From Bacteroidales bacterium (GTDB lineage: Bacteria > Bacteroidota > Bacteroidia > Bacteroidales > UBA12077), in contig JAQIBH010000050.1 in assembly GCA_027859205.1 (NCBI GenBank), positions 1 through 34,242 of the forward strand: a stretch of DNA of 34,242 nt. Reading direction: 5' to 3'. Below the pieces are notes generated by a model that saw only the letters and a program-made list of their open reading frames with translations, ran no database searches and was not told where the DNA came from. Below, in pieces: positions 489-28,694 of the stretch. Position numbers and translations under genes: made by a program. Positions within the stretch are counted from its first letter, which is position 1; each line of letters opens with the position of its first letter.

Positions 489-3400
489 TTATTTGCTTAA
501 TAAATATCCTCCATTTTCTCCTCCCTCTGGACCAAGCTCTATTAAACAATCGGCAATTTTCATAAACCAAGGATGATGCTCGATAATATATAAAGCATGC
601 CCTTGATCTCTTAATTTAAATAATACTTGTAGTAGTTTTTCTATATCATAAAAATGCAATCCAGTTGTTGGTTCATCTAATAAATACAGACATTCCTGCC
701 TTGCCGGCAGGCAGGCTTCCTTCGACTTTTTTAATAATTCTTTTGCAAGTTTTAATCGTTGTGCTTCTCCTCCGGAAAGAGTTGTGGCAGATTGACCTAA
801 TTTTAAATGCCCTAAACCTAAATCACAAAGCAATTCAATTGCAAATTTCAATTTTACTTCTGATTTAAAAACTTCGAAAGCCTTATTAATATTTAATTCT
901 AAGATTTCTGATATCGAATAATTATTCCATTTTACCCTTAAAGTCTCATTTTTAAATCGCTTACCATCACAATCTGAACATGTAACCCAAACATCAGACA
1001 AAAAATCCATTGATATTTTTATTTGCCCTTGTCCTTTGCAAGTTTCACATCGTCCGCCCTTTGTATTATATGAGAAATATGATTTCCTAAATTTATTTTT
1101 TATTGCAATTTCTGTATCAGCAAATAAATTCCGAATTTGATCATATAAATTAAGAAAAGTTACTGGTGTGCTTAAAGGATTTTTTCCTATTGAGGATTGA
1201 TCCATCTTTATTATGGAGCTAAAATACTCAAGTCCTTTTATTGATTTACAATTTATTGATTTTCCTGCAACAGCTGATTGTGCTATTACATCGAATAACA
1301 GACTTGATTTCCCACTACCAGAAACGCCAGAAAATACAGTAATACCATTTATTGGAAGCTTAACATCAATGTTTTTAAGATTATTTGCTGATGCAGATTT
1401 AATTTCTATACCAAAATTTAATTCTAACTTATTCTTTGGGAAATTAAAATTGTAATCTTTTTGAAGATATTTTGAAGTAAGTGATTCCTTGTTTTTAAAG
1501 AACTCATTTATTTCTCCTTTGGCAATAATTTCACCACCTTCATCGCCTGCTCCTTGCCCTAGTTCTAGAATGTAATCGGCAGCTTTTATTACATCTTCGT
1601 CATGTTCAACAACAACAACAGTGTTTCTTTCTGAAAGTTGTTTAATTAATTCAATAAGATGTTGAGTATCTTTTGCATGCAAGCCGACTGTGGGCTCGTC
1701 CAGAACATATGTTATTCCAACTAATTCGCCTCCTAACTGCGAAACCAACCTCAATCTGCGACCTTCACCACCCGATAGAGTCATAGTGCTTCGGCTTATA
1801 GATAAATATCCTAAACCGATTTTTATCATTGCATTTAACTTTTTAATACACGATTTGATAATTGAGGAGGCTATTTCAAAATCATTTTCAGATAGTTGCT
1901 TGTTTAAATTCTTGAAATATTCGATTGTTTCGACTGCTTCTAATTTAGATAATTCAGCAATGTTTTTGTTTGCTATTTTATATTGTAATGTTTTTTGATT
2001 TAAACGTGTTCCAGAACAATGATTGCATTTAACTTCTTTCATTAATCCTGCCACATCATCACCACCCTGTTTATCGTGTTTTCTTTGATACTCATCATCT
2101 ATGTAGTTTGCAAAGCCTAACCATTGTCCTTGAAACTGATGTGATCCTTCTCTGTTTTTGCGTTTATATTTCCAGTCTATTTCATATTCTATTTCTCCCG
2201 TTCCAAAGAGCACAATTTTTTTTGCTTTTTCATTTAAATCGTTCCAAGGCACATTAAAATTTATATTTTGAATTTTACCAACTTCTTGAATAGTTGATAT
2301 ATACTGACCATAAGGATCGCCATAAAACTCACCTATTTTAGAGCCTTTCATAGCGCCATCTACTAAGGTTAAATTAGGATTTGTAATTAATTTGTTAGGA
2401 TCGCAAGTAAGTTTAAATCCTAAACCATTGCATTTACTACAAGCACCTGCTTGATGATTAAAAGAAAAATGACTTGATAATACTGTACTTGGATTTCCGC
2501 TTTTATCTTTTGAAATCCTGGAGTATAGAAGCCTGTACAGATCATAAAGGCCTGTGATAGTGCCTCCTGTTGCTCTGGGACTTTTTGCCACGGATTTATT
2601 ATTTATGGCTATTGTAGGTGTTAATCCTTTACTTTCTAAAATGTTTGGCCGTGATTTTTGTTGTATTAAACTGCGGGCATAAGTTGAAAAACTTTCGGTG
2701 TATCGAAATTGTCCTTCGGCAAATAGTGTATCAAATGCTAAAGAAGATTTTCCGCTACCACTTACTCCTGTTATCACAGTTAACTTATTTCTGGGAATAT
2801 CTACATCAATATTTTTTAAATTATGTGTTTTAACACCCTTTAAACTAATTGGAGCATCTATTACTTTTTGTAAATCAATTTTTTCTTTTGATTTTTCGAT
2901 GGTTTTTTTTCCACTAAGTGCTTTTGAGGTGTGCGAGTTTTTGCAATCTAATAATTCATTATATGATCCGGAAAAAATTATTTCGCCACCATTATTTCCA
3001 CCTTCTGGACCTAAATCAATTATATGATCGGCATTTTTTATAATTCCAAAATCGTGTTCAATTACAACTACAGTATGTTTTTTTTTGGTAAGATTTTTTA
3101 ATGCTTCAAGAAGAATTGAAACATCGTAAGGATGTAATCCAGTTGTAGGCTCATCAAAAATATAAAGGGTGTGATTTTTTGTTGCTTTGACTAATTCTGC
3201 TGAGAGTTTCAGTCTTTGCGCTTCACCACCAGACAATGTAGTTGATGATTGCCCTAAAGATAGATATCCCAGACCAAGATTTTTTAGTACTTCAAGATAA
3301 TGATGGATTTTTGGCTCGTTCGAAAAAAAATCGCAAGCATCCGAAATTTCCATCTCTAGAATCTCCGAAATATTTTTGTCTAGATATTTAACGGTTAAAG

Positions 3401-5351
3401 TTTCATCATCGTATCTTTTGCCTTCACATGTTTCGCAAACTGTCTCAACATTGGCTAAAAAGTGCATTCCTGTTTGAATATATCCAGCACCTTCACAAAT
3501 TTCGCATCGTCCACCTTTGGTGTTAAAAGAAAAATGTCCTTGATTCCAATTATTCTTTTTCGAGTCGTGTAAATTAGCAAAAAGCATTCTAATTTGATCG
3601 AATAATTTGGTGTACGTTGCAGGATTACTTCTTGGTGTACGACCAATAGGTGTTTGATTTATTTCAATTATTTTTTGAATTTCTGTATCAGAAAGAATCT
3701 CAGAACAATTGATTTCTTGATTTAAATTTCCATTCAGTTTTGCTTGGTAAAACTTACCTAATATATCAAAAACCAAAGTTGATTTACCTGCGCCAGAAAC
3801 ACCAGTTACAACATTTAACGAATGTAATCTGAATTGAACATCGATATTTTTTAAATTGTATAAACTTGCACCTTTAATTTTTAACCATTTATTTTTTTGA
3901 TAATTTTTTAATTCAGAATTTGTATTGTCTTCAAATAAATATTTTAATGTCTCACTGTCTTTATTTATAAAATTTTTGATATTCAAAATATCCTTATTGA
4001 AAAGAATCTTTCCTCCATTTTTTCCGGCATACGGGCCAATATCAATTATCCGATCAGCATTTAACATCGTTTCCTTATCATGCTCAACAACTAAAACTGT
4101 ATTTCCCTGATTGCGCAATTCCTTCATTACATTAATCATTCTATTGTTATCTCTCGGATGCAATCCAATAGACGGTTCGTCAAGAATGTAAAGAATTCCA
4201 CGTAAGCCATTGCCAAGTTGTGTTGCCAGTCGTATCCGTTGTGCCTCTCCACCGGATAATGTTGTCGATTCGCGCATTAAGCTGAGGTATCCCAAGCCTA
4301 AGTTTTCAAGAATAAGGCATCGTTCAATAATTTTCTCTATTATTGGTTCAGCAACAGATCTCTGATTATTATCAAAACTAAAATCTTGAAAAACTTCTTT
4401 TAATTTTGATATGGATAATTCAGCAAGATCAATAATGTTTTTACCTTTTATAGTAATTGAAAGCGATTCTTTATTTAATCTTGTGCCATCGCAATTAGTA
4501 CATTTCACGGTTTTTGCAAAACGCAAAATGTTTGGATTTCTGTCAATACGAAGAATATTTTCCATTATTGGCAAAATTCCTTTATAAAATCCTTCTTCGC
4601 GAGGCTTGGCGGTTATCCCACTCCATTTCATTCGCGATTCTAATGTGTGCTTACCAAAAGGAATCTTTATTTTATTGCTTCCATATAAAATGATGTATTT
4701 TTGCTCGTCAGTTAAATCCTTCCATTTAATATCAACATTAAACCCTTCCGATTGACAAACCTGATCCATAACATCTATTGTAACCTGCGAGTATATTGTA
4801 TAACCCGATGGAGTAGTTATTTTTAAAGCTCCTTCGCGCAAACTTTTGTTAGCGTCTTTTATTAAAAGTTTAGGATCAATTTGATCTTCTACTCCTAATC
4901 CTTTACAGTAAGAACAATATCCTTCGGGGCTATTAAAAGAGAAAAGACTTCGAGTTAATTTTAATTCTGTACTCGGATTTGGTTTTTGCCCCGTTCGAGC
5001 AAAAAGTAATCTTAGGTAATCGTAAAGTTCGCTTATTATTCCAACAGTCGACCGTGGGTTTCGACTTACTGTTTTTTGATCGACAGAGATAGAAGGCATT
5101 AATCCTTCAATATGTTCAACCTCGGGGCGGGACATTTTTCCTAAAAACTGACGAGCGTAGGATGAAAAAGACTCGAAATATCTTCTTTGACTTTCCTTGC
5201 AAATAATATCATAAACTAATGAAGATTTTCCTGATCCGGAAACACCTGTAAAACAAGTAATTTGATGATGAGGAATTTTTAAACTAACATTTTTTAAGTT
5301 ATGTTTCGTTCCTTTTTCAAGAGTTATAAAGTCCTGTCCTACGTTTTTCAT
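489..5351 (-). CDS. Tandem-duplicated UvrA family ATPase (four ABC modules)
   Basis: This is a UvrA-type DNA-damage-recognition ATPase of 1620 residues, about twice the usual size. Four Walker A motifs GVSG(S/A)GKS lie near residues 36, 517, 862 and 1342. The matching motifs in the two halves are offset by about 825 residues, so it is a tandem of two complete UvrA units. Four signatures begin LSGGE; the third reads LSGGEGRR instead of LSGGEAQR. Four Walker B/Q regions (LDEP or FDEP) and CxxC pairs of the UvrA zinc modules are present in both halves. The spacing from Walker A to signature in each N-terminal module is about 130 residues shorter than in E. coli UvrA, so both halves appear to lack the UvrB-binding domain, as in UvrA2/DrrC-type proteins. 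Role is inferred: damage or intercalator tolerance without UvrB. I chose the ATG at 5351 over the TTG at 5372 because a -7 box overlaps the latter. A seven-codon palindromic repeat interrupts the last module. Confidence 0.93.
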   Translation of the reverse strand: MKNVGQDFITLEKGTKHNLKNVSLKIPHHQITCFTGVSGSGKSSLVYDIICKESQRRYFESFSSYARQFLGKMSRPEVEHIEGLMPSISVDQKTVSRNPRSTVGIISELYDYLRLLFARTGQKPNPSTELKLTRSLFSFNSPEGYCSYCKGLGVEDQIDPKLLIKDANKSLREGALKITTPSGYTIYSQVTIDVMDQVCQSEGFNVDIKWKDLTDEQKYIILYGSNKIKIPFGKHTLESRMKWSGITAKPREEGFYKGILPIMENILRIDRNPNILRFAKTVKCTNCDGTRLNKESLSITIKGKNIIDLAELSISKLKEVFQDFSFDNNQRSVAEPIIEKIIERCLILENLGLGYLSLMRESTTLSGGEAQRIRLATQLGNGLRGILYILDEPSIGLHPRDNNRMINVMKELRNQGNTVLVVEHDKETMLNADRIIDIGPYAGKNGGKILFNKDILNIKNFINKDSETLKYLFEDNTNSELKNYQKNKWLKIKGASLYNLKNIDVQFRLHSLNVVTGVSGAGKSTLVFDILGKFYQAKLNGNLNQEINCSEILSDTEIQKIIEINQTPIGRTPRSNPATYTKLFDQIRMLFANLHDSKKNNWNQGHFSFNTKGGRCEICEGAGYIQTGMHFLANVETVCETCEGKRYDDETLTVKYLDKNISEILEMEISDACDFFSNEPKIHHYLEVLKNLGLGYLSLGQSSTTLSGGEAQRLKLSAELVKATKNHTLYIFDEPTTGLHPYDVSILLEALKNLTKKKHTVVVIEHDFGIIKNADHIIDLGPEGGNNGGEIIFSGSYNELLDCKNSHTSKALSGKKTIEKSKEKIDLQKVIDAPISLKGVKTHNLKNIDVDIPRNKLTVITGVSGSGKSSLAFDTLFAEGQFRYTESFSTYARSLIQQKSRPNILESKGLTPTIAINNKSVAKSPRATGGTITGLYDLYRLLYSRISKDKSGNPSTVLSSHFSFNHQAGACSKCNGLGFKLTCDPNKLITNPNLTLVDGAMKGSKIGEFYGDPYGQYISTIQEVGKIQNINFNVPWNDLNEKAKKIVLFGTGEIEYEIDWKYKRKNREGSHQFQGQWLGFANYIDDEYQRKHDKQGGDDVAGLMKEVKCNHCSGTRLNQKTLQYKIANKNIAELSKLEAVETIEYFKNLNKQLSENDFEIASSIIKSCIKKLNAMIKIGLGYLSISRSTMTLSGGEGRRLRLVSQLGGELVGITYVLDEPTVGLHAKDTQHLIELIKQLSERNTVVVVEHDEDVIKAADYILELGQGAGDEGGEIIAKGEINEFFKNKESLTSKYLQKDYNFNFPKNKLELNFGIEIKSASANNLKNIDVKLPINGITVFSGVSGSGKSSLLFDVIAQSAVAGKSINCKSIKGLEYFSSIIKMDQSSIGKNPLSTPVTFLNLYDQIRNLFADTEIAIKNKFRKSYFSYNTKGGRCETCKGQGQIKISMDFLSDVWVTCSDCDGKRFKNETLRVKWNNYSISEILELNINKAFEVFKSEVKLKFAIELLCDLGLGHLKLGQSATTLSGGEAQRLKLAKELLKKSKEACLPARQECLYLLDEPTTGLHFYDIEKLLQVLFKLRDQGHALYIIEHHPWFMKIADCLIELGPEGGENGGYLLSK
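695..715. repeat. GC-rich palindromic repeat inserted in the uvrA reading frame
   Basis: The core TGCCGGCA is flanked by CCTGCC and GGCAGG arms, with one extra T breaking an otherwise perfect 20-bp palindrome. It is strikingly GC-rich for this genome. On the coding strand it adds about seven residues (ACLPARQ) before the LYLLDEPTTG Walker B of the fourth ATPase module; the second module lacks them. A GAA codon stands on both sides, which could be a short target duplication. Confidence 0.75.
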
Positions 5352-5369
5352 TTTTCTCTTTTTGAAATA

Positions 5370-5377
5370 CAAATATA
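5370..5377 (-). promoter_or_regulatory. -7 promoter box of the tandem uvrA gene
   Basis: On the minus strand this reads TATATTTG, a full match to the Bacteroidota TAnnTTTG -7 element, 18 bases before the ATG. No clear -33 TTTG is visible, and the implied leader is only about ten bases. Confidence 0.4.
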
Positions 5378-21552: not shown

Positions 21553-21870
21553 ATGGAAAATGATTTTATGGCTTTAGAAGCAGAAATAGTAAAAACACTT
21601 AAAGAAATATTCGATCCTGAGATACCAGTTAATATATACGACCTTGGTTTAATCTATGCCATTGAAGTAGATGATGATAAAGAAGTTGAAGTTAAAATGA
21701 CTTTAACAGCGCCAAATTGTCCAATGGCAGATCAATTGCTGGGTGAGGTTCACGAAAAAGTAAATGCAGTTGAAGGAGTGAAAAAAGCAAAAATAAATCT
21801 TGTTTTCGATCCACCTTGGGATAAAAGCTTAATGAGCGAAGAAGCTATGTTAGACCTCGGACTTCTTTAG
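21553..21870 (+). CDS. sufT: SufT-like Fe-S maturation protein (DUF59/MIP18 family)
   Basis: The 105-residue protein is a single DUF59/MIP18 domain, as found at the end of suf operons in many bacteria and related to eukaryotic CIA2. SufT contributes to maturation of Fe-S enzymes, and the mechanism is not settled. Visible motifs are DPEIPVNIYDLGLIYAIEV and MTLTAPNCPMADQL, with the conserved Cys, and a C-terminal VFDPPWDKSLMSEEAMLDLGL (about 77-105). It is the last gene of the suf run, 30 bases after sufE. The following gap holds a heptad array. Confidence 0.9.
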   Translation: MENDFMALEAEIVKTLKEIFDPEIPVNIYDLGLIYAIEVDDDKEVEVKMTLTAPNCPMADQLLGEVHEKVNAVEGVKKAKINLVFDPPWDKSLMSEEAMLDLGLL

Positions 21871-21921
21871 CATCAATTTGCATTGTACTTTATTGAAACA
21901 TTATTAAATACTTGATAAAAG

Positions 21922-21949
21922 CTTCAAGATTCAGGCTGCATGATGCTAA
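21922..21949 (+). repeat. Left heptad array of the first four-helix-bundle element
   Basis: Four 7-nt units in phase read GCTTCAA, GATTCAG, GCTGCAT and GATGCTA. The first nine bases (GCTTCAAGA) are inverted as TCTTGAAGC at 22351-22359 on the other side of the gene. A small hairpin TTTAGC-TTTAT-GCTAAA (21974-21990) lies between the array and the ATG. Confidence 0.5.
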
Positions 21950-21999
21950 GATTTTGAAACATCCTCTTTTATATTTAGCTTTATGCTAAAAGAATAAAT

Positions 22000-22356
22000 A
22001 TGAAAGATTTCAAGAAGTTGATTGTTTGGCAAAAAAGTATTGAATTAGTTACATCAATTTATAAAATTTCAAAAGATTTTCCTTCAGTAGAAAAATACGG
22101 CTTAACTAGTCAGGTTACAAGAGCTGCTGTATCTATTCCATCTAATATTGCAGAAGGAAGTAGTAGATTCAGTGAAAGAGATTATTTTAGATTTCTTGAA
22201 ATTGCTTTAGGGTCTGCGTTTGAGCTTGAAACTCAATTTATAATAATTGAAAAATTGGATTTTGTTATCGCAAATGATGTCAAAATCATAGTTGAGAATA
22301 TTAAAATAATTCAGAAAATGCTTTCAGGTTTAATGAGTAAATTAAAGCGTTCTTGA
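22000..22356 (+). CDS. Four-helix-bundle protein (23S rRNA IVP / Avd-like), copy 1
   Basis: The 118-residue protein belongs to the family of proteins encoded in 23S rRNA intervening sequences, structurally related to Avd of diversity-generating retroelements. It has FKKLIVWQKSIELV at the start, the conserved YGLTSQVTRAAVSIPSNIAEG and the motif RDYFRFLEIALGSAFELETQ, all in one compact helical bundle. The function is unknown and nucleic-acid binding is suspected. Here it sits between sufT and queG, not in rRNA, bracketed by inverted heptad arrays. It is closely similar to the second copy at 26458-26811. Confidence 0.9.
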   Translation: MKDFKKLIVWQKSIELVTSIYKISKDFPSVEKYGLTSQVTRAAVSIPSNIAEGSSRFSERDYFRFLEIALGSAFELETQFIIIEKLDFVIANDVKIIVENIKIIQKMLSGLMSKLKRS

Positions 22357-22377
22357 AGCATGAAGCGCGTGGCATAT
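22350..22377 (+). repeat. Right heptad array, overlapping the IVP stop and queG start
   Basis: Units TTCTTGA, AGCATGA, AGCGCGT and GGCATAT continue at 7-nt spacing. TCTTGAAGC is the perfect inverse of GCTTCAAGA at 21922-21930. The IVP stop TGA and the queG ATG both fall inside it. Later units are degenerate. Confidence 0.45.
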
Positions 22378-23286
22378 AGCAGTTTAATTAAACAAAAAGC
22401 TCTCGAACTAGGCTTTTATGCAATTGGTATTTCTAAAGCAGACTTCCTTGAAAAAGAATCGATTCAATTAAAAGCTTGGCTTGATAATGGTTTACATGGC
22501 GATATGCAATACATGGAAAATCATTTCGAAAAACGAACCGATCCACAAGTTTTAGTTGAAGGTGCAAAATCCGTTATATCTGTTTTGCATAATTACTATC
22601 CGGAAGAGAAACAAAGAAAAGATACTTATAAAATTTCTAAATACGCATATGGTAAAGATTATCATTATGTTGTAAAAGAAAAACTGAATGCTTTATTGGA
22701 GTTTATTCAAAACGAAATAGGAGAAGTAACAGGACGTGCATTTGTCGATTCAGCCCCGGTGATGGATAAAGTTTGGGCAGCAAAATCTGGATTGGGTTGG
22801 ATTGGGAAAAATACTAATCTTATTTCAAAGGAATTCGGCTCATTTGTTTTTATTGGCGAGTTAATTATTGATTTGGAATTAGAGTATGACAACTCTATTA
22901 AGGACTATTGTGGAACCTGCACAAAATGTATTGATGCGTGTCCTACTAACGCAATAAGCGAATATAAGCTAGATGCCCGAAAATGCATCTCATATTTAAC
23001 TATTGAAAAGAAATATGATTTCCTGGAGGAAATGAAAAATAAATGGAGCGACTGGATATTTGGATGTGATATTTGCCAGGATGTTTGTCCATGGAACTCA
23101 AAATTAGAACCACACAGCGAAAAAACTTTTAATATTTCTAATGAACTTAAAAATCTTTCAAAAGAAGATTGGCAGAATTTGGATAAATCCTCATTTAAAG
23201 AACTTTTTAAAAACACTCCTTTTGAGCGAACAAGATTTGAGGGATTAAAAAGAAATATTGATTTTTTGAGTCAAGAAGATCACTAA
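22360..23286 (+). CDS. queG: Epoxyqueuosine reductase
   Basis: The 308-residue QueG reduces epoxyqueuosine to queuosine in tRNA, the last step of that modification, using cobalamin and two 4Fe-4S clusters. The catalytic Asp is in [13 protein letters not shown] (Asp130), followed by [12 protein letters not shown]. Clusters are bound by [12 protein letters not shown] (Cys184, 187, 190, 194) and [11 protein letters not shown] (Cys236, 239, 243) with Cys209. The length is typical of the shorter form. The ATG lies inside the right heptad array of the preceding element, so its first codons (MKRVAYS) may have been rewritten by that insertion. Confidence 0.95.
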
Positions 23287-25124: not shown

Positions 25125-25529
25125 TTAGTCAGAGATTATAGAAACAACAATATTTATTTTATCTCTTGGACCATCAAATTCGCAGAAGAAAATATTTTGC
25201 CAAGTTGATAAGCCAATTTTACCATTAATAATAGGAACAGTTTCGCTTGGTCCGACAATTCCTGCTTTTAAATGCGCATCTCCGTTATTGTCTTGTTTAT
25301 CATGTTCCCAAATACCAGCAGGAATTAGTTTTTTCAAAAGAGTTACTACATCGTTTTGCACAGAATTATCCCAATTTTCCTGAATCATGATTGCTGCAGT
25401 AGCTCCTTGAGCATAAATATTAACAATTCCGTTTTTAATATTTGAAGATGAAATAATCTTTTCAACCTGACTTGTAATATCGTATAAACCATTACGCTTA
25501 TCAGTTGATATTTGTATGATTTCTTGCAT
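25125..25529 (-). CDS. YjbQ/UPF0047 family protein
   Basis: The protein has 134 residues from the ATG at 25529, which matches the family start (MQEIIQISTDKRNGLYDIT); an upstream start at 25571 would overlap the opposite gene. It has the conserved NIYAQGATAAIMIQEN, GDAHLKAGIVGPSETVPI, LSTWQNIFFCEFDGPRD motifs of the YjbQ family (about 37-125). Members show weak thiamine-phosphate-synthase activity, but the true role is unsettled. It is divergent from the alpha/beta hydrolase, with a 46-base gap that must hold both promoters. Confidence 0.92.
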   Translation of the reverse strand: MQEIIQISTDKRNGLYDITSQVEKIISSSNIKNGIVNIYAQGATAAIMIQENWDNSVQNDVVTLLKKLIPAGIWEHDKQDNNGDAHLKAGIVGPSETVPIINGKIGLSTWQNIFFCEFDGPRDKINIVVSIISD

Positions 25530-25575
25530 AATATCTTTAAATTTGATTTTTAGATTATATAAATTTACCAAAAAA

Positions 25576-26421
25576 ATGAATTACAAGTCAACAACTTATT
25601 CCTCATTCGACGGAATGAAACTCTCTGGTTATATATGGGAACCAAAAGAAAATCCAAAAGCAATTATCAATCTGGTACATGGGTTTGGTGAGTATAGCGA
25701 GCGATATGACCAATGGGCAATGCGTTTTACTGATAAAGGTTTTCTTGTTCATGCAATAGATTATCGTGGACATGGAAAATCGGAAGGAAAAAGAGGGCAT
25801 ATTAGTAATTTTGAGGAGTTTTTAAATGATATTGATGTTATTGTAAAAGGATCGAAAAAACTATATCCGGAATTGCCACAGTATATATATGGGCATAGTT
25901 TGGGTGGGAATATTGTGACTAACTACATTTTAAAAAGAAATAATGATTTTAAAGGAGCAATTATATCTTCTCCTTGGTATAAATTATCTTTTAATCCTTC
26001 GGCTTTTATGCTTTTTTTGGCAAGAATAATGAATAAAGTTTATCCAAAATTTACGCAGAAATCTAAATTGGAATTGAATGCTCTAACACATGATAAGAAA
26101 GTTGTTGATGACTATTTGGAAGATCCTTTGGTTCATGAGAAAATATCTACAAGAATGTTTTTTGAGATTTATAAATCAGGAGATTGGATTTTAGAAAATG
26201 CCAAAAAAATAAACTTACCTGTTTTAATTCAGCATGGTAATAGCGATAAAATAACATCTTATAAAGCAAGTAAGGAATTTGCAGAAAAGGCAAAAGAGTT
26301 GAATAAAGAAGTTGATTATAAGGAATGGCCAGGATTGTATCACGAATTACACAATGAGTTACAAAAAGAAGAAATATTTGACTTTATTTTAAAATGGATT
26401 GAAAAAAGCTTTGAGTCTTGA
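25576..26421 (+). CDS. Alpha/beta hydrolase, monoacylglycerol-lipase-like
   Basis: The 281-residue serine hydrolase has an oxyanion region in LVHGFGEYSERY (about 33-44), the nucleophile Ser108 in YGHSLGGN, Asp224 in HGNSDKIT and His256 in GLYHELHNE, the complete triad. DYRGHGKSEGKRGHI (about 62-76) is typical of the monoacylglycerol lipase/lysophospholipase branch (Hydrolase_4). No signal peptide is seen, so it is cytoplasmic. The ATG at 25576 fits the family. The last codons and stop overlap the first heptads of the element that follows. Confidence 0.9.
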   Translation: MNYKSTTYSSFDGMKLSGYIWEPKENPKAIINLVHGFGEYSERYDQWAMRFTDKGFLVHAIDYRGHGKSEGKRGHISNFEEFLNDIDVIVKGSKKLYPELPQYIYGHSLGGNIVTNYILKRNNDFKGAIISSPWYKLSFNPSAFMLFLARIMNKVYPKFTQKSKLELNALTHDKKVVDDYLEDPLVHEKISTRMFFEIYKSGDWILENAKKINLPVLIQHGNSDKITSYKASKEFAEKAKELNKEVDYKEWPGLYHELHNELQKEEIFDFILKWIEKSFES

Positions 26422-26437
26422 GCAGGGAGCTTTGAGC
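26410..26437 (+). repeat. Left heptad array of the second four-helix-bundle element
   Basis: Units TTTGAGT, CTTGAGC, AGGGAGC and TTTGAGC are perfectly phased at 7 nt. AGCTTTGAGCTA (26428-26439) and AGCTTTGAGT (26407-26416) are both perfectly inverted on the far side of the gene. The hydrolase stop TGA lies in the second unit. Confidence 0.75.
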
Positions 26438-26457
26438 TAATAAAGAATATAAAAAGA

Positions 26458-26811
26458 ATGAAGAATTTTAAAAATTTAAAAGTCTGGGAAAAGGGATTTC
26501 AAATAGCGATTTCTACATATAAAATAACAAAGAAATTCTCAACTGAAGAGAAGTATGGATTGACTAGTCAAATGAACCGTGCATCAATTTCAATTACATC
26601 GAATATTGCTGAAGGAAGCAGCAGAAGAAGCGAAAAAGATTATTTCCGTTTTTTAGAAATTGCTTTAGGGTCTTGTTTCGAATTAGAAAGTCAATTATTA
26701 ATTTCCACAGAATTAGAGTTTATTGAAAGAGAACAAGCAAATTCATTATTACAAAATATCGATGAAGAGCAAAAAATGCTTATTGCTTTTATGAAAAAGC
26801 TAAATAATTAA
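26458..26811 (+). CDS. Four-helix-bundle protein (23S rRNA IVP / Avd-like), copy 2
   Basis: The 117-residue paralogue of the protein at 22000 belongs to the same family. It shares FKNLKVWEKGFQ, KYGLTSQMNRASISITSNIAEGSS (about 34-57) and KDYFRFLEIALGSCFELESQ, which is nearly identical between the copies. It lies between an alpha/beta hydrolase and a GSCFA gene with no functional link to either. The gene is exactly enclosed by two inverted heptad arrays, so transcript ends could pair and display the coding region as a loop, as in rRNA intervening sequences. Function is unknown. Confidence 0.9.
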   Translation: MKNFKNLKVWEKGFQIAISTYKITKKFSTEEKYGLTSQMNRASISITSNIAEGSSRRSEKDYFRFLEIALGSCFELESQLLISTELEFIEREQANSLLQNIDEEQKMLIAFMKKLNN

Positions 26812-26812
26812 T

Positions 26813-26843
26813 GCTCGTAGCTCAAAGCTAAAAACTCAAAGCT
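26813..26843 (+). repeat. Right heptad array of the second four-helix-bundle element
   Basis: Units GCTCGTA, GCTCAAA, GCTAAAA and ACTCAAA, then GCT, are in 7-nt phase. TAGCTCAAAGCT (26818-26829) inverts 26428-26439 perfectly (12 bp), and ACTCAAAGCT (26834-26843) inverts 26407-26416 (10 bp). The array begins two bases after the stop codon. Confidence 0.75.
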
Positions 26844-26851
26844 ATTTTACT

Positions 26852-27841
26852 ATGAAAAACTTTCACACAATTATACAACCAGAACCGTCTAAAAACAAAA
26901 TAGGCTATGACACCCCAATGCTTTTTCTAGGTTCGTGTTTTACAGAGAATATTGGGAATAAAATTACTGAGTTAAAACTTCCGGTACAAATAAATCCATT
27001 TGGTGTTTTATATAATTCGGTTTCGGTTCGAAATGGTCTGGAAATATTGATCGACCAAAAGAAATTTAAGGAAACAGATTTAGGCTATTTTAACGAACAA
27101 TGGTTTAGTTTTTATCATGATTCTGAGTTTTCAGATTCCGATAAAAAGCAAAGTTTAAATAAAATTAATACATCAATTAAATTAGCAACTGAACAATTAA
27201 GAAAAGCGGAGTATCTAGTTATTACTTTTGGTACCGCTTGGGTATATAAATACCTGGAAACAGGAAATATTGTTTCAAATTGCCATAAAATTCCCTCAAA
27301 AGAATTTGAACGAGTTAAACTGGAACCTGCGGATATTTTTGTTGAATGGTCGAATTTGATAAGTAGATTACAAGAGCTAAATCCAAAATTGAAAATAATA
27401 TTTACAGTAAGTCCGGTTCGTCATTGGAAAGATGGAGCAGTTCAAAATCAATTGAGTAAATCAACATTGATTTTAGCAATTCATCAATTAAAAAATAAGT
27501 TTGAGAATGTAGAATATTTCCCGGCTTATGAAATTATGATGGACGATTTGCGTGATTATCGTTTCTACGCAGATGATATGCTACATCCATCAAAAGTTGC
27601 TGTTGATTATATTTGGGATCAGTTTTCGAAAACATATTTTGGTAAAGAAACAACAGATATTTTTAAAGAAATTGATAAAATAATCTTGGCAAGAAATCAT
27701 CGTCCTTTAAATCCCAACACTCAAAACCATAAAAACTTTATTAAAAAGCAAATAGAGAATATTCAAAAACTTTCTAAGATGTATAGCTTTATTGATTTTG
27801 AAGAAGAGTTAAGATTTTTTACAAAGAATAAAAATTATTGA
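26852..27841 (+). CDS. GSCFA domain protein
   Basis: The 329-residue protein has the name-giving motif LGSCFTENIG (26-35) of the GSCFA family, a branch of SGNH/GDSL-like hydrolases. NPFGVLYNS (48-56), LVITFGTAWVY, TVSPVRHWKDG and ADDMLHPSKVAVDYIW follow, with the probable catalytic Asp/His in the last. The substrate is unknown; Bacteroidota carry it commonly as a housekeeping gene. It lacks a signal peptide. It follows the second IVP-like element, and its own promoter is probably hidden by or within that insertion. Confidence 0.9.
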   Translation: MKNFHTIIQPEPSKNKIGYDTPMLFLGSCFTENIGNKITELKLPVQINPFGVLYNSVSVRNGLEILIDQKKFKETDLGYFNEQWFSFYHDSEFSDSDKKQSLNKINTSIKLATEQLRKAEYLVITFGTAWVYKYLETGNIVSNCHKIPSKEFERVKLEPADIFVEWSNLISRLQELNPKLKIIFTVSPVRHWKDGAVQNQLSKSTLILAIHQLKNKFENVEYFPAYEIMMDDLRDYRFYADDMLHPSKVAVDYIWDQFSKTYFGKETTDIFKEIDKIILARNHRPLNPNTQNHKNFIKKQIENIQKLSKMYSFIDFEEELRFFTKNKNY

Positions 27842-28659: not shown

Positions 28660-28694
28660 AAACTCTAAACACTAAACTTGAAACTCGAAACTAA
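28660..28694. repeat. Solo array of five heptads (AAACNNN)
   Basis: AAACTCT, AAACACT, AAACTTG, AAACTCG and AAACTAA start at 28660, 28667, 28674, 28681 and 28688, an exact 7-nt period. No gene is associated. It lies in the intergenic gap between kdsB and the sigma-54 regulator. It looks like one end of the elements that bracket the four-helix-bundle genes, with a different heptad sequence. Confidence 0.65.

Follow-up and report, generated by a model that had tools for sequence, protein, structure and literature searches.

The window analysed here is the whole stretch of 34,242 nucleotides from a Bacteroidales bacterium, and it contains a four-helix-bundle (FHB) gene lying between an alpha/beta hydrolase gene and a GSCFA family gene, with all three genes on the plus strand (Table 1). 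The FHB gene is enclosed by two arms of 36 nt each, 78% complementary to one another. A scan of the window at distances of 250-700 nt ranked these arms first among the long-range inverted pairs, and they share a perfect 12-bp core (26428-26439 with 26818-26829). Both arms are built of heptads, namely TTTGAGT (26410-26416), CTTGAGC (26417-26423), AGGGAGC (26424-26430) and TTTGAGC (26431-26437) on the left and GCTCGTA (26813-26819), GCTCAAA (26820-26826), GCTAAAA (26827-26833) and ACTCAAA (26834-26840) on the right. The right array was called independently by TRF at 26819-26843 with a period of 7. The inverted score of this pair is 20, a value that dinucleotide shuffling of the flanks never reached in 1000 trials (best shuffle 17). 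The preliminary description had noted arrays in 7-nt phase that are mutually inverted around the FHB gene, in an element adjoining the hydrolase stop; the coordinates, the 12-bp core and the shuffles confirm the first of these, and the stop codon TGA (26419-26421) was indeed found inside the left heptad array.

Table 1. Features of the window discussed in the text
Feature	Position	Strand	Basis
Upstream neighbour, alpha/beta hydrolase (Hydrolase_4); final codons belong to the array; start codon taken from the mechanical listing	25516-26421	+	Pfam
Left arm made of degenerate heptads (unit about AGCTTTG); includes the hydrolase stop codon	26402-26437	+	
FHB gene, 117 aa, PF05635 23S_rRNA_IVP / TIGR02436	26458-26811	+	Pfam 129.4 bits; NCBIfam TIGR02436 125.8 bits
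Right arm with heptads in inverted orientation (unit CAAAGCT), stopping 3 nt short of the GSCFA start codon	26813-26848	+	
Downstream neighbour, GSCFA family protein	26852-27841	+	Pfam
Left array of second element, AGCTTCA-like, weak	21920-21950	+	by eye
Second FHB gene, between genes 21553-21870 and 22360-23286	22000-22356	+	Pfam 125.9 bits
Right array of second element, TTGAAGC/ATGAAGC; contains the downstream gene's start codon	22350-22373	+	by eye
Heptad array AAACTCG, 4.7 copies, no FHB gene, divergent intergenic region	28660-28692		TRF

The only Pfam match of the FHB protein is PF05635 and no nuclease domain was found by Pfam. Relatives of the protein have solved structures (2gsc and 2rld). 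A median dN/dS of 0.11 was obtained over 78 FHB pairs, a figure that is approximate because many of the pairs have saturated dS and are not independent, and as judged from these substitutions the FHB protein is under purifying selection.

A second FHB gene occurs in the window. Its flanks look heptad-like by eye but are not significant alone, with a score of 11 that was equalled or exceeded by 317 of 1000 shuffles; at the same locus, the element of the relative G007 (L019) scores 26. Another relative (L232) has no element at this locus, where the spacer is too diverged for the junction to be placed. The array at 28660-28692 may be the leftover of an FHB element. On the minus strand at 489-5372, the window also carries an ORF of 1627 aa with four SGSGKS/SGAGKS-type ATP-binding stretches, which by eye resembles a tandemly doubled UvrA.

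The history of the main locus was followed by eye in ten genomes that have the GSCFA gene, including our own (L213-L222). Four of them retain the FHB gene, two of these with an internal stop, and the other six comprise two remnants, three cases with leftover arrays only and one locus cut by a contig end. The leftover arrays are clear in G008; those of G007 and G004 are short and open to doubt. The unit present on both arms is about AGCTTTG in the own genome (G000) and AGTTATT/AGTTTTT in G009 (by eye). No clean empty site for the window's own element was found among these relatives; the locus looks inherited, with losses.

Heptad arms as a property of the gene family

Inverted scores were computed as ungapped +1/-1 matches within 160-nt flanks, with the own pair of each element set against cross-pairs between elements. 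Fifteen PF05635 matches were found in the own genome, eleven of which lie at or above the 95th percentile of the cross-pairs when the bounds of the profile matches are used; by eye, 7-nt arrays border most of these FHB genes, the left matching the right, with a unit that differs from gene to gene. Own pairs exceeded cross-pairs in each of the sets scored. The mean was 16.1 against 10.4 in the genus and order set (83 of 84 elements, one being dropped for a short flank), with scores of at least 16 in 41 of 83 elements and 2.3% of cross-pairs. For 29 Bacteroidota loci (29 hits scored of 32) the means were 16.0 and 9.8, with 15 of 29 against 3.4% at this threshold, and for 74 of 80 named loci (six dropped) they were 19.5 and 9.7, with 55 of 74 against 3.8%. 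The record titles of the named loci include Desulfosarcina, KSB1, Omnitrophota, Planctomycetota, Clostridia, SAR324 and candidate phyla, the taxon names of MAG records being those of the titles and hence open to misbinning. A score of at least 16 was also found at 10 of 12 cyanobacterial plasmid loci, a selection made among the 30 records listed, out of 41 plasmid records in which PF05635 matched; most of the named records among these 41 are cyanobacterial. No FHB match was found in phage records.

A total of 220 unique FHB elements, mostly from Bacteroidota and excluding the cyanobacterial ones, were collected, of which 135 score at least 16, 71 at least 20 and 85 below 16. Among 231 ordinary genes of 90-400 aa, two reached 16 and none reached 20, while 380 kb of the relative G007 contained fifteen inverted pairs of at least 17 at 250-700 nt, one of them located at an FHB gene. 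Genes of the PF05635 family were present in 232 of the 296 Bacteroidota genomes sampled, in a survey that recorded best matches only and took one locus per genome.

The period of the arrays is distinctive. In 79 kb of FHB flanks, 101 arrays were found at lag 7, 35 at lag 8 and 72 at the harmonic lag 14, with 0-3 at each of the lags 5, 6 and 9-13. Only four strict lag-7 arrays occur in the 380 kb of G007, so that their density beside FHB genes is about 100-fold above this background. At the strict threshold a lag-7 array is held by 73 of the 220 elements, and one at lag 7 or 8 by 100. The left unit, as read from 97 elements, consists of AG followed by five mostly A/T letters, the frequency of AG in this consensus being inflated because the phase was set by AG. 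Chance or low complexity as the source of the arms was rejected on the shuffles, the window scan, the ordinary-gene control and the lag-7 counts. The preliminary description had proposed that other family members be examined for 7-nt periodicity and inverted complementarity, and random intergenic places for similar arrays; its claim came through both comparisons, with the arms going with the family.

Several elements depart from the common layout. Arrays running in the same direction on both sides, rather than inverted, were observed at L277, which has many near-perfect AGCTAAA/AGCCAAA copies, and at L279. A direct match scoring 103 connects the two flanks of L200, and by eye the arms of L107, L115, L168 and L039 show an 8-nt unit. 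The FHB frame of L004 (G000:C51:3798-4103) has no stop of its own, stays open for 330 aa and runs past the gene, a possible natural fusion.

Inverted flanks are also found beside Y1 (IS200-type) transposase genes, and hairpin ends are suited to such transposases. REPIN/RAYT systems combine a small Y1 nuclease gene with REP palindromic ends, many copies and solo copies. FHB elements resemble them in the small gene, the palindromic ends and the many and solo copies, and Y1_Tnp matches occur in 17 of 19 genomes, with four in the own genome. The flanks of 19 Y1 genes (one of the 20 fetched being dropped) have a mean inverted score of 14.8 and reach 16 in 7 of 19 cases through other palindromes. 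They are hardly enriched at lag 7 (0.314/0.291 against 0.295 at other lags), which shows that inverted flanks alone are not special and that heptad arms are. FHB and Y1 counts are uncorrelated (rho 0.22, p 0.35), and G004, which is 86% complete, has eight FHB matches and no Y1 match. REPIN/RAYT itself was rejected on the grounds that Y1 genes have palindromes without heptads and that the gene of the unit matches PF05635 only; a REPIN/RAYT-like element moved by a Y1 transposase is accordingly judged very improbable.

The two arms of an element change together, as their sequences show. Cross-element arm matches of at least 14 were found in 77% of pairs at 70-85% protein identity, 37% at 60-70%, 8% at 50-60% and about 1% below 30%, whereas the left and right arms of the same element match at all protein identities. 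Heptad similarity tracks protein identity above 60% only; a heptad code that follows the protein over larger distances was not seen, the correlation being -0.04 below 60% identity. For 242 pairs of elements that share both neighbour families, own matches exceeded cross matches in 198 and the reverse held in 35, with ties in the rest, a count that is no more than indicative, since the pairs lack independence and a cluster of 21 members among them covers two or more different joints. No correlation was found between left and right array length (rho 0.15, p 0.16, 86 elements).

The order of unit variants is mirrored to a small but consistent extent, since arms of 124 elements scored 20.2 in register and 18.8 after block shuffling. 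Most of the arm-to-arm match is accounted for by shared units, and the in-register effect is too small for the arms to be purely mirrored copies. It had been suggested that the repeated units allow pairing in several registers; such pairing can be drawn on paper, and the in-register agreement is only slightly better than that of the block-shuffled arms.

Placement and probable movement of the elements

Most FHB elements occupy short gaps between co-directional genes. The median element length is 464 nt and, over 135 elements, the median distance is 22 nt from the end of the left arm to the start codon and 1 nt from the stop to the beginning of the right arm. Co-direction with both neighbours was observed for 185 of 203 elements, compared with 169 among 300 triples of neighbouring genes in one relative under the same naive gene calls; the remaining 17 of the 220 elements were left out of this count as both neighbours did not lie within 400 nt. 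The cyanobacterial loci (n=12) comprise eight elements in sense with both neighbours, three antisense to both and one mixed. The sense bias in Bacteroidota may reflect a need for operon transcription or the avoidance of polarity.

The strong orientation bias favours a reading in which RNase III excises the FHB segment after pairing of the arms within the operon mRNA, and the element spreads or persists through RNA. The layout also matches that of the intervening sequences (IVS) of rRNA, which according to PMC4990558 are cleaved by RNase III at a terminal stem of 28 bp. On the other hand, G.U mismatches in the arms do not outnumber A.C ones but are rather the fewer (161 against 217 at scores of at least 13, 92 against 150 at scores of at least 18, and 292 against 367 in cross-pairs), so that no tolerance of sense-strand wobble is apparent, and the three cyanobacterial elements antisense to both neighbours also speak against it. 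Moreover, the own genome (G000, 95.53% complete, 15 FHB matches) contains no RVT_1 match, and FHB and RVT_1 counts over 19 genomes correlate negatively (rho -0.58), findings on which mobilisation by a diversity-generating retroelement or reverse transcriptase was rejected. A DNA-level element with hairpin or duplex arms as protein sites is therefore favoured, with RNA processing as a strong rival: we regard the RNA-level reading as possible although tentative, and it overlaps with the DNA-level explanation rather than excluding it.

The neighbours of FHB elements are varied and include cas, nrd and conjugation genes. Three elements have cas genes on either side: L285 and L287, both of which carry inverted arms, and L277 with its same-direction arrays.

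Two further observations were made on the surroundings. In several Bacteroidota, FHB elements were seen by eye at more than one joint of an apparent beta-oxidation operon (hydroxyacyl-CoA dehydrogenase, thiolase, acyl-CoA dehydrogenase); loci of this type include L105, L124, L152, L165, L169, L170, L175, L184, L193, L196, L205 and others, the neighbours having been read for L205, L193, L196 and L152. In a KSB1 record (L148), two minus-strand Acido-Lenti-1 RNA matches (2986-3031 and 3559-3604) lie near the FHB gene.

Seven comparisons of filled and empty sites were obtained in Nostocales and related plasmids (sites A, B, C, D, E, F and nrd). At site A, the element of Trichormus L286 is a clean insert of 420 nt relative to the empty L295 and L296, with flanks that are 98.5 and 97.5% identical; by eye, GTAAT stands on both sides of the insert and once in the empty site, while a mismatch-tolerant script gave an overlap of 8. 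A clean insert of 418 nt was likewise found at site B (L288 filled, L302 empty, flanks 92.8% identical), where TTCTA was read by eye on either side of the insert, one base fewer being present beside it, and the script value is -1. Sites C, D, E, F and nrd show no flanking repeat, and their filled copies lack, or cannot be aligned with, about 1-42 nt of the spacer seen at the empty site; the flanks of site C are too diverged for an exact junction. The seven sites revealed no consistent target-site duplication of fixed length, a 5-bp repeat (by eye) being present at two of them at best. The annotated gap between the neighbours at the empty sites measures 13 nt at A, 3 at B, 12 at C, 52 at D, 2 at E, 2 at F (L306) and 40 at nrd; in L305, where the genes at site F are called differently, the gap is 111.

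Relatives of the site A element that are 78-82% identical occur at other sites, the similarity ending roughly at the arms (e.g. query 66-484 of 621), and in Bacteroidota L010 and L093, at different sites, are alike from 31 nt 5' of the gene to 50 nt 3' of it. The pair L284/L289 from two plasmids of one strain shows no move because the element is shared together with its surroundings, and no empty site for L285 was found among plasmids. The proposal made for the window, of a mobile element akin to the 23S IVS and not described before, is supported by the family-linked arms, by the Nostocales sites and by similar elements at different sites; the empty sites that had been recommended as a check were found for relatives in Nostocales plasmids but, in clean form, not for the window's own copy. 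These findings suggest that FHB elements are an overlooked kind of mobile DNA that enters gene joints.

A non-mobile explanation would make the FHB protein a host operon regulator that binds adjacent heptads, the arms serving as operators. It is favoured by the purifying selection on the protein and by the recurrence of elements at the same places of certain operons across Bacteroidota. It is hard to reconcile with presence and absence among plasmids at sites A, B and D within flanks that are 92.8-100% identical, with broken copies (two of the fifteen matches in the own genome have an internal stop) and with the variety of neighbours, and we consider it unlikely.

Arms without an FHB gene raise another possibility, namely that heptad foldbacks are a primary non-coding repeat, as in the heptanucleotide repeats of cyanobacteria, in which FHB genes have settled as passengers. 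At site D, L293 has arms without the FHB gene that is present in C052, and on two cyanobacterial plasmids (L298 780-1010 and L299 780-1010) non-coding foldbacks of about 180 nt were found with both FHB-type arms and a common core hairpin but no FHB gene; an Rfam search of these foldbacks gave no match. Stems of 7-nt repeats without an FHB gene are also described in the P6b loop of the Nostoc trnL intron (PMC4476775). Against passengers stand the rarity of strict lag-7 arrays away from FHB genes, the tracking of protein identity by heptad similarity above 60% and the presence of gene and arms together at sites A and B, where the empty relatives have no array at that spot. It is improbable on this evidence that the gene is a mere passenger.

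Relation to known systems and proposed mechanism

The closest known system is the 23S rRNA IVS with an S23p/IVP open reading frame, e.g. that of Coxiella (428 nt; PMC4990558), which has the same protein family, a gene looped between complementary ends, a size of a few hundred nt and a scattered distribution. The window element has a PF05635/S23p protein and complementary ends enclosing an ORF. It differs in its location, since an IVS lies in 23S rRNA and has a 28-bp stem, with tandem heptad arms not mentioned in the available text of PMC4990558, whereas FHB elements lie in protein operons and have heptad arms. An Rfam scan of the window gave no match, so no rRNA was found there, and none was found by the same means in 20 further FHB loci (18 with non-Bacteroidota titles); an rRNA IVS proper was rejected on these scans. 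Inverted ends are also shared with terminal-inverted-repeat transposons and MITEs; no transposase is known for FHB elements, and no consistent fixed duplication was seen at the seven sites.

STRR are intergenic heptamer repeats of cyanobacteria. Intergenic TAACTGA heptamer repeats have been described in Beggiatoaceae, Cyanobacteria and Bacteroidetes as direct repeats with no gene attached (PMC4679880); like FHB arms they are 7-nt repeats in intergenic regions, often near start codons, with 7-nt indels and in the same phyla. The terms '23S', 'four helix' and 'S23' are absent from the main text of PMC4679880. In the P6b stem of the Nostoc trnL intron, heptads of Class I (TDNGATT) and Class II (NNTGAGT) occur in a region that is replaced at once (PMC4476775). 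They resemble FHB arms as 7-nt repeats in a stem, but are located in a group I intron and have no FHB gene. By our own reading of the letters, Class II NNTGAGT would fit AGNNNNN after rotation.

Avd of diversity-generating retroelements has a related four-helix-bundle fold, 4DWL having been compared with 2GSC, and works with RT, TR and VR (PMC10053308); the Avd model gave 23.8 bits for the window protein, below its cut-off of 80. Eighteen 23S_rRNA_IVP genes have been reported in cas loci (PMC3936711) and FHB genes are also listed as cas-associated in PMC10910872. No paper joining an FHB gene with heptad repeats was found among the matches listed from open-licence PMC papers. Heptad-armed FHB elements are real, general and, as far as the open-licence PMC literature searched goes, undescribed.

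On balance, the element at 26402-26848 is likely, though by no means certain, to be an IVS-like foldback element outside rRNA, mobile or formerly mobile, with an arm-binding FHB protein and an enzyme acting in trans. It consists of a left degenerate heptad array, the FHB gene and an inverted right array; such elements would enter the gap between co-directional operon genes, usually in sense orientation. The FHB gene would then be read with the host operon, and the spacing at the adjoining stop and start codons would now be provided by the arms. Four-helix bundles of a homologue assemble into a pentamer (Lin et al. 2006, as cited in PMC3936711). Recognition of heptad stems by the protein, as the preliminary description proposed, is plausible, the oligomer probably binding the arms of the element that encodes it; that the pentamer touches about five heptads of one arm, with one subunit per heptad, is a guess. 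The protein may help the element to spread or to be maintained, in concert with an enzyme provided in trans that cleaves or copies, and slippage of units together with arm-to-arm copying would keep both arms alike. We know of no enzyme for the mobility of FHB elements and of no transposase that recognises their ends.

A wider version of this explanation is tentatively offered, which we hold to be conceivable but doubtful as a whole. The FHB system would be a distinct class of mobile elements without a transposase or reverse transcriptase, in which 7-nt registers are read by a pentameric FHB protein that binds nucleic acid, slippage and arm-to-arm copying extend and homogenise the arms one heptad at a time, and entry occurs into operon joints at stop codons. 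STRR, the TAACTGA arrays, the trnL P6b heptads, the FHB genes of cas operons and the rRNA IVS would then be its products or fossils.

If FHB genes are elements that spread themselves and lodge in the joints of operons, their associations with cas genes need re-examination, and a source would be at hand for the long-known heptanucleotide repeats. The natural pairs of filled and empty sites make the mode of movement directly testable.
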